Program-made: the position numbers and the translations under genes | Notes under the pieces: generated by a model | What the model was told of the DNA's origin: nothing | The model's input: the letters and a program-made list of their open reading frames with translations, nothing else | The model's database searches: none | Assembly: GCF_012516375.2 (NCBI RefSeq) | Contig: NZ_CP051204.2 | Span: 1,116,001 to 1,180,000 of the forward strand | Length of the DNA: 64,000 bases | Origin: Chitinophaga oryzae | GTDB lineage: Bacteria > Bacteroidota > Bacteroidia > Chitinophagales > Chitinophagaceae | Direction: 5' to 3' | In this document: one piece after another, positions 998 through 41,237 of the stretch | How positions within the stretch are numbered: position 1 is the stretch's first letter | Layout of the letters: the number at the start of each line of letters is the position of its first letter

Positions 998-2191
998 ATG
1001 AAAATCAATTTAATGCTCTGCACAGGTTTGCTGTTAATGTTTGTCTTTCTGTCCTGTAAAAAGGAGGCAAGTGTCAAAGAAAGTGAACCAGTGGCAAAAG
1101 ACAGTCCTGTTAAAGTAGTCGATGGTGTACTGCACTTCTCTGACGATCAGACTTTCGTTCAGACAATGTTGGCAATTAATTCAATGTCTGCGGAACAGCG
1201 ACAGGCATGGGAGAAGGAGATTGGTTTCACTTCCCTGAGATCGGTTTACGACAAATTCAATCAGGAGCTTGATAAAATGGAAGCCGCACAGAATAAAGAC
1301 GGCTTTTTTACCGTGAAGAACAAGTATGATCGGGTTGTAGTGTGGAATAGTGCCGGCACTTCTTATGATATCAACTGCCGGGGTATTCTGGAAGCGGGTG
1401 TAGTAAATGCAGAAGGCCTGGTTCGGATAAATGACCAGCTTTTGCAATACAGCCATGATCAGATTACGACTTCTTCTATTCAGGCAGAAGGTAGCATTGG
1501 TGGCAGAAAAGCAAATGAGCATACTATTATTTGGGCAAGAGACAAGAAAAATACATTAGCAAGAGATGTCACTGTCTTTGATCAGTCTGCGCTGGTTGCT
1601 TATGGACAGGCACCCGTTTTGAATCAACTTAAAATGGGAGAAGGCAGTTTTGCCAATGCGTCTCCGATGGAATCCGGCGTGGAGGCGGCAGCTCATGCAC
1701 AGGTTAAGATTTACAACTTTTTGTTGAACGGACAAAACAGGGGCTTTTGCACGGTTTACTATTTTGCGGAACATAGAAACTGGCTTGGTATTTTACGAAG
1801 GGTAAATACTATCAATAGCGGTTTTGTAGGGGATCATGCCGTTACGCTGAACAATCAGGGAGAACATATGATTTACAGTGTCGGCGATTTCGGCGGGAAC
1901 TGGGTGAAAGGTCCCAACTGGAGCCACGGGCTTGCCACGGAGCATGAAGTGGTGATTATCGCATCCGCTGCGCTGAAAAGCAATCCGACGACGGTAAGTT
2001 ATATTCCGCCGTCTTTGAATAATCAGTTTGTGAATGCAGACTATGCGATAACGGAGGACGGCTCTTCCAATAATTACTGGAAGAAATACGTACCGTTTGG
2101 CGCTCTGGGATATCCGCTTCGGATTAAGATCCATAGTGTAGGAACTTACCCAAGTCCGGACACTCATTCGTATATTCTTGAATTTAAATAG
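998..2191 (+). CDS. Lipoprotein of unknown function
   Basis: This 397-residue protein starts with a lipoprotein signal: a positively charged start, a hydrophobic stretch, then FLSC followed by KK, giving the lipidated Cys at about residue 20. No catalytic motif was recognised. The C-terminal half is rich in aromatic residues and Gly, with runs such as GNWVKGPNWSHG and SSNNYWKKYVPFG, suggesting a beta-rich extracytoplasmic domain. The gene stands alone and ends in a bidirectional terminator at 2198. Export and lipidation are well supported; no function is proposed. Confidence 0.75.
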   Translation: MKINLMLCTGLLLMFVFLSCKKEASVKESEPVAKDSPVKVVDGVLHFSDDQTFVQTMLAINSMSAEQRQAWEKEIGFTSLRSVYDKFNQELDKMEAAQNKDGFFTVKNKYDRVVVWNSAGTSYDINCRGILEAGVVNAEGLVRINDQLLQYSHDQITTSSIQAEGSIGGRKANEHTIIWARDKKNTLARDVTVFDQSALVAYGQAPVLNQLKMGEGSFANASPMESGVEAAAHAQVKIYNFLLNGQNRGFCTVYYFAEHRNWLGILRRVNTINSGFVGDHAVTLNNQGEHMIYSVGDFGGNWVKGPNWSHGLATEHEVVIIASAALKSNPTTVSYIPPSLNNQFVNADYAITEDGSSNNYWKKYVPFGALGYPLRIKIHSVGTYPSPDTHSYILEFK

Positions 2192-2197
2192 TGATAT

Positions 2198-2225
2198 AAA
2201 GGGCTGAACCCCGGTTCAGCCCTTT
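2198..2225. terminator. Bidirectional terminator between lipoprotein and lanthipeptide genes
   Basis: AAAGGGCTGAACC and GGTTCAGCCCTTT form a perfect 13-bp stem with a 2-base loop. It has A-rich and T-rich flanks on the two sides, so it can end transcription from the lipoprotein (plus strand) and from the precursor gene at 2233 (minus strand). Confidence 0.8.
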
Positions 2226-2232
2226 ATTGTGT

Positions 2233-2388
2233 TTATTGAACGCAGTCAATCGTCCGGATGCAGCCGGGACAGGTAGTTTGATCGAAAGATGTCAGGCAGA
2301 TGAACGCTTTCTTGGGTTGGGTAGCATTCAGGTCAGCGATTTTTACTTTTGCCAGCTGGAGTTTTTTGGGAAATGTGTTCTTTTTCAT
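2233..2388 (-). CDS. Class I lanthipeptide-type precursor, copy 1
   Basis: This 51-residue peptide was found by reading the minus strand. The leader begins MKKNTFPKKLQLAKVKIADL and carries the KKLxLxKxxIAxLN pattern typical of Bacteroidota class I lanthipeptide precursors. The predicted core has Cys at 31, 40, 43 and 49 and Ser/Thr at 33, 34, 38, 39 and 46. Family knowledge: LanB dehydrates Ser/Thr and LanC adds Cys thiols to give lanthionines; Chitinophaga pinensis makes pinensins this way. The peptide aligns without gaps in its Cys/Thr spacing to the second copy at 2495. No LanB, LanC, protease or exporter gene occurs in the window, so maturation would need enzymes encoded elsewhere. The modified state is inferred, not shown. 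Confidence 0.72.
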   Translation of the reverse strand: MKKNTFPKKLQLAKVKIADLNATQPKKAFICLTSFDQTTCPGCIRTIDCVQ

Positions 2389-2415
2389 AATTGGAGGATT
2401 ACAATAGATAGTCCC

Positions 2416-2463
2416 CTCCTGTCTTTAGCCGGGAGGCAATGCCATGGAGCGGATGTTCAGCAT
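2416..2463 (-). repeat. Conserved leader block upstream of precursor copy 1
   Basis: This 48-base block matches the block at 2681-2728 at 45 of 48 positions. It lies about 28 bases upstream of the precursor start. In mRNA sense it begins ATGCTGAACATCCGC and contains a 12-codon open frame (MLNIRSMAL..G, stop TAA) in both copies. It is either a small leader ORF, an RNA element, or simply the trace of a recent tandem duplication. Confidence 0.6.
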
Positions 2464-2494
2464 TGAAGTGTGACGTGCGGTTGGTCCTTACCTG

Positions 2495-2650
2495 TTAAAG
2501 GCAAAGGATAGTTTCCACGCAGTTACGGCAAGTAGTTTCTGCATAAGAAGTTTCGCAGATAAATTCTTTCTGTTTGAGCTGGTTGGGATTCAGGATGGCG
2601 ATTTTCATTTTTGCCAGCTGCAGTTTTTTCGGAAAAGTTTTCTTTTTCAT
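2495..2650 (-). CDS. Class I lanthipeptide-type precursor, copy 2
   Basis: This 51-residue peptide begins MKKKTFPKKLQLAKMKIAIL. It shares the leader of copy 1 and the core pattern FICxTS(Y/F)xxTTCxxC(V/I)xTIxC, with Cys at 32, 41, 44 and 50. The two genes lie in tandem on the minus strand about 106 bases apart, each preceded by the same 48-base block. Leader conservation, together with core variation that is confined mostly to non-Cys and non-Thr positions, is what one expects of paralogous lanthipeptide precursors. It is the promoter-proximal copy. No modification enzyme is nearby. An alternative is a non-modified Cys-rich small peptide, but the leader argues against that. Confidence 0.72.
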   Translation of the reverse strand: MKKKTFPKKLQLAKMKIAILNPNQLKQKEFICETSYAETTCRNCVETILCL

Positions 2651-4823: not shown

Positions 4824-4947
4824 CTTCGGTACTTTTTTCGAACTTTTTTATGGAAGATTTAAAGAGGCTCGCAAGCATGGTGGTTTAGTAACCGGCCTGC
4901 GGGCCTTTTCTGTATATGATTATTTGTGAACCTGAAAATTGTGTTGT

Positions 4948-12008: not shown

Positions 12009-12129
12009 ACATTTAAAGTAGCAAAAAATATCCTAAAGCATAATGAAATGATTATTAATAGTAATTGATTTGTTTAATTTTAATTATCAAATTGATTATC
12101 ATTAGTCGCATTCCATTTGGAATGTTCCT

Positions 12130-39305: not shown

Positions 39306-41084
39306 CTAGACGGTCTCCAGCTTGCGCTCGCCTATCTGCTGACGCCACATGGCATAATATAACCCCTTCTCTTCCAGCAGTTCTTCGTGCCTGCCCGTTT
39401 CTACGATATGCCCTTTTTCAAGCACGTAAATACGGTCTGCGTGCATGATCGTGCTCAACCGGTGGGCGATCATCACCGTGATATGCTGCTTGCTGGCGGT
39501 CACCTGGCGCACCGTTTTGGTGATCTCCTCTTCGGTAATGGAATCCAGCGCGGACGTAGCTTCGTCAAATACCAGTAAACGAGGCTTACGTAATAACGCC
39601 CGGGCAATGGACAACCGCTGCTTTTCCCCTCCGGAGATCTTAATGCCCCCTTCGCCGATCACCGTCTCCAGCCCTTTGTCAGCCCGCGCCAGCAGCGAAT
39701 AACAGGCTGCCTTGCTCAGGGCGTCCATAATCTCTGCGTCTGATGCGCCCGGGTTCACGAACAACAGGTTCTCCCGGATAGTGCCGGCAAACAACTGCGT
39801 GTCCTGCGTTACAAAGCCTACCTGGTGCCGCAGATCGTCCATGTCGGCTTCATTGGCATCTACGCCATTGTACAGGATATGCCCTTCATTGGGTTTGTAC
39901 AGCCCTACCAGCAGCTTTACCAGCGTGGTTTTACCGGAACCGGAAGGGCCTACGAAAGCGATGGTCTCCCCCAGCTGCGCGGAAAAGCTCACCTGGTCCA
40001 GCGCCTTGGTGGCGGCTGTCAGATGCTTGAAGCCCACCTGCCGGAAAGTAAGATCGTCAATGTGATTGATCTTCACAGGGTGCGCCGGCGTCTCTTCCAC
40101 AGGCGTATTCAGAATACCCTGGAAGTTCAGCAGCGATACCTGCGCCTCCCTGTAGTTAAGGATAATATTGCCCAGCTCCTGCAATGGTCCGAAAATAAAG
40201 AAGGAATACAGCTGAAGCGTCATCAGCTGCCCGATGGACACATAATCACGATAGATGTAAAACAACAGCAAAAACAGGATGCTTTGCCGCATCAGGTTCA
40301 CAAAAGTACCCTGTACAAAGCTGATACTGCGGATGCTGCGTACTTTCTTCAGCTCCAGCATCAATATCTTGATGGTGGTGCTGTTCAGCCGGCGGATCTC
40401 CTGGTGGGTAAGCCCCAGGCTCTTCACCAGCTCAATGTTGCGCAACGATTCGGTAGTAGAACCAGCCAAAGCGGTAGTCTCCTTCACGATCGTTTTCTGG
40501 ATCACCTTGATCTTACGGCTCAGCACACTCATCAGGATGGCGAGCAACACACAGCCGATCAGATACACAAACGGCAGGGTCCAGTGTACCATGGTGGCAT
40601 AAACCATCACAAACACCACACCGATCATCGATACAAACAATACGTTCACAAACGAAGTAATGAACTTCTCACAGTCTGTCCGCACCTTTTGCAGGATAGC
40701 CAGCGTTTCGCCGCTGCGCTGGTCTTCAAACTGCTGATAAGGCAGCCGCAGCGAGTGTTTCAGACCGTCGGTATACACCTGGGCGCCGAATTTCTGTACG
40801 ATCACATTCACAAAATAGTCCTGGAACGCCTTCGCGATCCGCGATACCATGGCTACGCCGATAGCAGCGGCAATCAGCCACAGCACACCGGATAAATACT
40901 GCCCCTCCGGCCGCGGAATACCCCCTCCCTTTATAGTGGTGTGCGGATGGGAGGCGAACCGGTCAATGATCCACCCGAATATCATCGGGTCCAATAACGA
41001 AAAAAGCTGGTTGATACTTGCCAGCGCCATAGCCAATACTACGAGCCATTTATATTTCTTCAGATAATGTAGCAACAGTTTCAT
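39306..41084 (-). CDS. ABC exporter, fused membrane and ATPase domains
   Basis: The protein has 592 residues from ATG 41084 (MKLLLHYLKKYKW); the longer frame would start inside the promoter. Six membrane segments fill the first 330 residues. The ATPase follows with Walker A AFVGPSGSGKTTLVKLL, Q-loop FVTQDTQLFAG, signature KISGGEKQRLSIARAL, Walker B LLVFDEATSALD and switch His in IAHRLSTI. It works as a dimer exporting lipids, drugs or peptides; the substrate is unknown. The MsbA/LmrA-like subfamily fits best. Confidence 0.93.
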   Translation of the reverse strand: MKLLLHYLKKYKWLVVLAMALASINQLFSLLDPMIFGWIIDRFASHPHTTIKGGGIPRPEGQYLSGVLWLIAAAIGVAMVSRIAKAFQDYFVNVIVQKFGAQVYTDGLKHSLRLPYQQFEDQRSGETLAILQKVRTDCEKFITSFVNVLFVSMIGVVFVMVYATMVHWTLPFVYLIGCVLLAILMSVLSRKIKVIQKTIVKETTALAGSTTESLRNIELVKSLGLTHQEIRRLNSTTIKILMLELKKVRSIRSISFVQGTFVNLMRQSILFLLLFYIYRDYVSIGQLMTLQLYSFFIFGPLQELGNIILNYREAQVSLLNFQGILNTPVEETPAHPVKINHIDDLTFRQVGFKHLTAATKALDQVSFSAQLGETIAFVGPSGSGKTTLVKLLVGLYKPNEGHILYNGVDANEADMDDLRHQVGFVTQDTQLFAGTIRENLLFVNPGASDAEIMDALSKAACYSLLARADKGLETVIGEGGIKISGGEKQRLSIARALLRKPRLLVFDEATSALDSITEEEITKTVRQVTASKQHITVMIAHRLSTIMHADRIYVLEKGHIVETGRHEELLEEKGLYYAMWRQQIGERKLETV

Positions 41085-41105
41085 AATATGTTCTTTACAG
41101 GTGCA

Positions 41106-41129
41106 CAAAGTTACTGCATGTTGCAACAT
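41106..41129 (-). promoter_or_regulatory. -7 box of the ABC exporter with adjacent palindrome
   Basis: In transcript sense TAACTTTG (41106-41113) matches TAnnTTTG and lies 21 bases before the ATG. Immediately upstream is the perfect palindrome ATGTTGCAACAT (41118-41129), a possible operator between -7 and -33. Confidence 0.6.
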
Positions 41130-41237
41130 ATTACAGGTAATCAAAAGGTCATTTTTTGACCAAAAATCAGTAACTTAATAGTAATAGCTCTTTGTTTGGC
41201 AACGGTGATAATCGATTACCTGATTAAATCTCCACAT

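Follow-up and report, generated by a model that had tools for sequence, protein, structure and literature searches.

A covarying RNA element upstream of orphan class I lanthipeptide-type precursor genes in Chitinophaga

A tandem pair of lanthipeptide-type genes

The window studied here, a stretch of 64,000 nucleotides from Chitinophaga oryzae, is part of a one-contig genome of 8,363,885 bases (8.36 Mb). A preliminary description, made from the sequence alone, had reported two small lanthipeptide-type genes near one end of it. The pair is real: two open reading frames of equal length lie in tandem on the minus strand (Table 1), and they share the leader KKLQLAKxKIAxLN and a core, C-x-T-S-x3-T-T-C-x2-C-x2-T-x2-C, in which four Cys and five Ser/Thr occupy identical positions, as had been claimed. 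LxLxKx5L is present in both leaders, the cores are rich in Cys and Thr/Ser, and both genes score above the cut-off of the NCBIfam model NF038153 ('class I lanthipeptide'), which bears out their assignment to lanthipeptide-type precursors. A GG cleavage motif was found in neither gene. The two genes are probably carried on a common transcript. A sigma-70 promoter scan gave no match, which is little informative for this phylum, and the hairpin directly 3' of gene 2, read on the minus strand, has no T-run that passes the terminator scan.

Table 1. Features at the tandem pair, and precursor genes of the genome that carry the RNA element
Feature	Position	Strand	Remarks
Orphan class I lanthipeptide precursor gene 1	2495..2650	-	51 codons; NF038153 23.2 bits (cut-off 22); family HMM 80.4 bits
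Orphan class I lanthipeptide precursor gene 2	2233..2388	-	51 codons; NF038153 27.3 bits (cut-off 22); family HMM 93.0 bits
RNA element copy 1, long form, P1 + P2	2676..2726	-	3' end 25 nt from the ATG of gene 1; 72.3 bits with model R1, E 6.0e-14 (own genome); one of seven training copies
RNA element copy 2, between both genes	2411..2461	-	3' end 22 nt from the ATG of gene 2; 74.6 bits with model R1, E 1.6e-14; one of seven training copies
14-pair hairpin, directly 3' of gene 2	2196..2227		Terminator-like for the converging plus-strand gene 998..2191, possibly shared; listed for the plus strand only
Seven element-bearing precursors of the genome	Both window genes; 2039119, 4275435, 4280564, 5857127, 5858151

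The same description held that the window contains no lanthipeptide synthetase and no exporter. For the synthetase this stands, as neither LANC_like nor Lant_dehydr_N has a match in the window; the absence of an exporter has to be qualified, since a 612-aa ABC transporter ORF (39306..41144) aligns with two C39-type exporters of the genome, over 290 and 505 aa. Between positions 4939 and 7239, putative ORFs for a relaxase, a primase/toprim protein and a small mobilisation protein suggest a mobile element near the orphans.

Missing from that first account was a repeat. It came to light when gene 1, together with the sequence upstream of it, was used as a DNA query: the upstream stretch recurred before other precursors. 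Within the window its first 25 nt occur twice, against 0 expected, and the two copies of element plus gene are 78% identical.

Structure and distribution of the RNA element

Further copies of the leader exist, as NF038153 gave 29 rows genome-wide. We counted 28 precursors (27 above the cut-off plus 2879078, which lies beside a LanC; row 1817986 was dropped), and a regular expression located a further one at L051:10826. When the ~100 nt upstream of the 28 were read, a GCTGAA...CCATGGC...AAGACAGGRG-like block was apparent before seven (Table 1), the remaining 21 being without the element. Two of the seven, 5857127 and 5858151, lie within a cluster that holds LanC, LanB and a C39/ABC exporter. 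By eye, a stretch AACCYGTAAA is seen near the start codon of several element-less precursors (e.g. C1:4756691, 4756931, 5857914, 4280799, 6509322 and 6509622).

The element measures ~51 nt and comprises a nearly invariant 5' GCUGAA, a hairpin, P1, and usually a second hairpin, P2, which distinguishes a long form from a short one. P1 pairs CC-N-CYCC with GGRG-N-GG and encloses the conserved loop ANGGC / AAGACA; besides GCUGAA, the nearly invariant unpaired positions are ANGG and AGACA. In a MAFFT alignment of the seven copies, with the structure taken from single folds, 93.5% of the cells were paired against at most 58.1% when slid, and both sides had changed in 7 cells against at most 1. Alignments of 96 and 120 rows, which were fitted to the covariance model and so favour its structure, gave 103 both-side-changed cells (at most 14 when slid) and 140 (at most 22 when slid; 0 of 500 shuffles reached 140), respectively. 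RNAalifold alone kept only four P1 pairs, and single element sequences were not more stable than shuffles (z -0.67 to +0.72). In P1, a G/A change tracks its pairing partner, the pair being U-A in 50 of 114 distinct copies and C-G in 63. All together, the element is a structured RNA with two covarying helices, and its covariation exceeds that of the controls. The loop often reads CATGG; an upstream ORF within the element was discarded as a candidate because only 71 of the 114 distinct copies have that ATG. Searched against Rfam 15, eight element-bearing loci contained no family at gathering score, a multi-copy array (L125) matched nothing at E up to 5, and the surroundings of the window genes gave sub-threshold matches only.

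A covariance model of the seven own-genome copies (R1) recovered them at E 1.8e-5 or better, followed by a match at E 0.786 (150 of 1567 candidates scored); as the seven are the training set, this search shows only the absence of further clear copies. Across the genus, 95 copies were found in 26 of 60 genomes, 88 of them outside the own genome. With the downstream ORFs partly assigned by eye, 92 of the 95 stand before a lanthipeptide-type precursor with an LxLxK-type leader (one of them, in genome G022, is degenerate and doubles another copy ahead of its gene), two before other GG-leader peptides (G002, G039) and one before a broken precursor (G046); for the 88 copies the figures are 85, 2 and 1. 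As a rough control, 20,000 positions were drawn at random from the fetched loci, themselves precursor-rich; for 105 of them such an ORF began within 60 nt. For KKL-type leaders the ATG follows the element by 17-26 nt in 87 of 91 cases. The element occurs before clustered and orphan genes alike, and in arrays such as L125 and L135 it occupies the gap that separates a precursor's stop codon from the next ATG; copies between cistrons lie within about 40 nt of the preceding stop. Intact-looking elements also stand before broken precursor genes at L152:8038-8088 and L316.

A family search (model R2, 394 genomes, 15 candidates scored per genome) matched 13 genomes in 8 of 101 genera. The 34 newly seen copies precede 25 LxLxK-type leaders (by eye), five other GG-leader peptides, two small proteins whose N-termini resemble signal peptides and two doubtful cases; 24 of the 25 come from three genomes of Taibaiella (family Chitinophagaceae). 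Relaxing the search in 11 of these genomes gave 11 further sites, and the 12 sites examined, G119:C14 included, comprised six LxLxK-/LxFxK-type leaders, one broken leader, three proteins whose N-termini resemble signal peptides and two sites without a fitting gene. Matches regarded as doubtful were G073, a plain hairpin, L321 (E 0.009) and L322, identical to G119:C14, where the script found no ORF. Among the seven loci with other GG-leader peptides (two in the genus, five in the family), five hold a C39/ABC-type homologue. In genus g61, a variant of the element precedes genes for proteins with a signal-peptide-like N-terminus that are not RiPP precursors (L211:7280-7319, 12059-12098, L318 and L319), and the theme may therefore be exported products in general.

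An exact pattern applied to 84,980 species genomes matched 46 stretches, 44 of them in Chitinophaga or Taibaiella and one in an uncultured Bacteroidetes MAG with a GG-leader peptide downstream; a match in an Alphaproteobacteria MAG appears inside coding sequence and was judged to be chance. In the class search (model R3, 395 genomes, 15 candidates scored per genome), which had limited sensitivity, only four matches in three genomes were obtained besides the own genome (E 0.005-0.007), a chance level because E 0.01 per genome yields about as many.

The orphan peptide family and its candidate synthetase

Located through the element, the orphan family comprises 41 genes (37 unique) in 22 genomes, one member having a deviating core (G051:C24). 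Cys and Thr are kept in 20 aligned members, and the 292 of 666 pairs that were neither too close nor saturated have a median dN/dS of 0.24; the family is under purifying selection. With the element ignored, a family HMM detected 46 genes at 49 bits or more in the 60 genus genomes, 41 of them with the element; as the HMM was built from element-bearing genes, distant element-less members may be under-counted in this figure. The five without it are one internal array gene (G016) and four distant members (G053, G008), and the element is thus dispensable for the peptide family. The 46 matches and the dN/dS value together indicate that the window pair is more than a chance occurrence. A protein search gave five matches, both source-named ones being from Chitinophaga and one named class I lanthipeptide. 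Homologues of LanB, LanC or an exporter were found in 0 of 25 element-bearing loci of the family (~15-16 kb each; tblastn, E 1e-8). The orphan state is a stable arrangement across species, and the RNA tag finds such precursors directly.

Genome-wide, LANC_like has six matches and Lant_dehydr_N four, two of the latter in one frame at 6.458-6.460 Mb. LanB and LanC are both present outside the window, so the complete absence that the preliminary description had considered is not what the genome holds. Another orphan group was noticed at C1:4754995-4757026 (L049), where nine GG-type lanthipeptide precursors stand in tandem; its 18-kb locus contains no LanB, LanC or exporter homologue and no RNA element. 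At C1:6509322-6511060 (L053) two precursors adjoin a LanC, in a 19-kb locus with no LanB homologue and no RNA element.

Two alternatives had been offered for the pair, a distant synthetase acting in trans or a new subgroup. Both find support, the former in a LanB/LanC cluster at 2.88 Mb whose precursors have the same leader class, KKLxLxKIKxAxL, and the latter in the distinct orphan core, IC-x-TS-x3-TTCPxC; the shared RNA element had been missed. The 2.88-Mb cluster presumably resembles pinensin clusters. Its own precursors differ from the orphans in their cores (PTYTGCSL-x-KC-PP and SQGAPICSxDSC). We fetched 34 further clusters around LanB of this type, and in each of the 35, including the own one, a KKL-type leader, mostly KKLxLxKIKxAxL, is found on at least one precursor; none of the 35 has the element. 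Among hand-chosen representative orphans, 15 of 15 leaders were closer to 14 leaders of the 2.88-Mb type than to 12 GG-type leaders, mean leader identity being 0.59 to the 2.88-Mb type and 0.425 to the class of another cluster, at 5.85 Mb. LanB of the 2.88-Mb type (at least 48% identity) is present in 21 of 21 orphan-family genomes and 17 of 39 others (Fisher 3.6e-6, kinship ignored), and any LanB in 26 of 26 element genomes and 18 of 34 others (1.5e-5, kinship again ignored). This leader match and co-occurrence suggest that the orphans are likely modified in trans by the 2.88-Mb LanB/LanC.

Given the absence of the element from those 35 clusters, the leader points to 2.88 Mb and the element to 5.85 Mb. 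Modification by the LanC-LanB-C39/ABC cluster at 5.85 Mb instead would agree with the element carried by two of its five precursors and with the 16 genomes in which element-bearing clusters of this type occur. However, its precursors belong to another leader class, as the identities above show, and clusters of this type that bear the element occur in only 12 of the 21 orphan-family genomes, against all 21 for the 2.88-Mb LanB type, which makes the 5.85-Mb cluster a somewhat unlikely modifier. A link of the element to LanB chemistry as such was rejected, given that it is also found ahead of GG-leader peptides below every NCBIfam cut-off and is missing from the 2.88-Mb-type clusters. Three clusters of the latter type (L271, L272 and L273, in genomes G049, G046 and G024) have a C39/ABC homologue and precursors mostly with a GG leader end; the orphan precursors have the GG end in G046 and G024 and not in G049.

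Possible role of the element and relation to known systems

The joint explanation that we favour, with modest confidence, is that the peptides are class I lanthipeptide precursors kept away from their enzymes and modified in trans, each cistron bearing a folded RNA element through which a trans-acting binder co-regulates scattered and clustered peptide genes. Each cistron of the window pair carries its own ~51-nt element, whose end lies 22-25 nt from the start codon, and the binder would read the conserved loops. The element would most likely act on translation or processing, cistron by cistron, and scattered and clustered genes could thereby be co-regulated; the LanB/LanC pair at 2.875-2.881 Mb would then dehydrate and cyclise the peptides in trans. 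The recurrence between cistrons and the near-fixed distance to the ATG make action at the level of the mRNA, separately for each gene, the most likely mode. Chitinophagaceae soil bacteria place it almost only before exported-peptide genes, and it could serve as a switch linking scattered peptide genes. More specifically, a single trans-acting factor (protein, small RNA or ligand) might recognise GCUGAA / ANGGC / AAGACA; the element would then represent a new class of mRNA-borne regulator, and an RNA tag rather than clustering would define a dispersed peptide regulon of lanthipeptides and bacteriocin-like GG-leader peptides. We put this forward tentatively, as something short of an even chance.

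Other roles have to be weighed against a trans-acting binder. The conserved unpaired GCUGAA, ANGG and AAGACA around a covarying stem, kept in long and short forms alike, resemble a binding pocket, and each precursor could be translated under the control of a riboswitch for a small molecule or the mature peptide. By eye, however, the stretch from element to ATG shows neither a terminator nor a conserved alternative pairing, so that no expression platform is seen, and no Rfam riboswitch matches; we consider a riboswitch unlikely. The purine-rich 3' strand of P1, GGRGAGG, looks like a Shine-Dalgarno sequence, and ribosome binding sites are unusual in the host phylum; the strand could be a site hidden in P1 that only specialised ribosomes of the phylum would read. 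Yet more than 20 nt separate it from the ATG and its G/A change follows the pairing partner, and such a reading is improbable.

Being short, conserved and upstream of genes, the element could also work as DNA, as an operator or part of a promoter. The covarying helices, the copies between cistrons so close to the preceding stop and the spacing fixed to the ATG speak against this, and we give it just as little credence as a hidden Shine-Dalgarno site. Finally, the arrays clearly arose by duplication and the window copies are alike together with their genes, as expected if a functionless element were merely carried along with duplicated precursors. But compensatory changes preserve the helices, in other genera the element stands before peptides whose cores and leaders are unrelated, and it is absent from precursors of the 2.88-Mb type despite the same leader class, which leaves passive carriage the slimmest prospect among these.

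Should the element prove regulatory, it would constitute a family of cis-acting RNAs that mostly serve exported peptide natural products; it would offer a means of activating silent Chitinophaga peptides and a way to test the co-expression of scattered RiPP precursors. In searches of open-licence PMC papers on lanthipeptides, Chitinophaga, RiPP and structured RNAs, we recognised no description of it; an article on the regulation of bottromycin, a RiPP, uses the word riboswitch once (PMC7113386). A large lanthipeptide survey looked no farther than seven genes from a LanC gene and would thus miss such orphans (PMC7268733).

Like the cis-regulatory families of Rfam 15, the element is a short structured RNA before a gene, with covariation; unlike them, it reaches no family's gathering score in the eight loci. 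Bacteroidetes class I lanthipeptide precursors have LxLxKx5L leaders (PMC7268733), and the orphans resemble these precursors in that leader, in exceeding the NF038153 cut-off and in a Cys- and Thr/Ser-rich core; they differ in loci without LanB/LanC (0 of 25), in the missing GG motif of the window genes and in a core of their own. Prochlorosin-type systems, which are class II, likewise have precursor genes far from the enzyme (PMC7268733), whereas the orphans described here are of class I, have another leader type and bear an RNA element on each gene.
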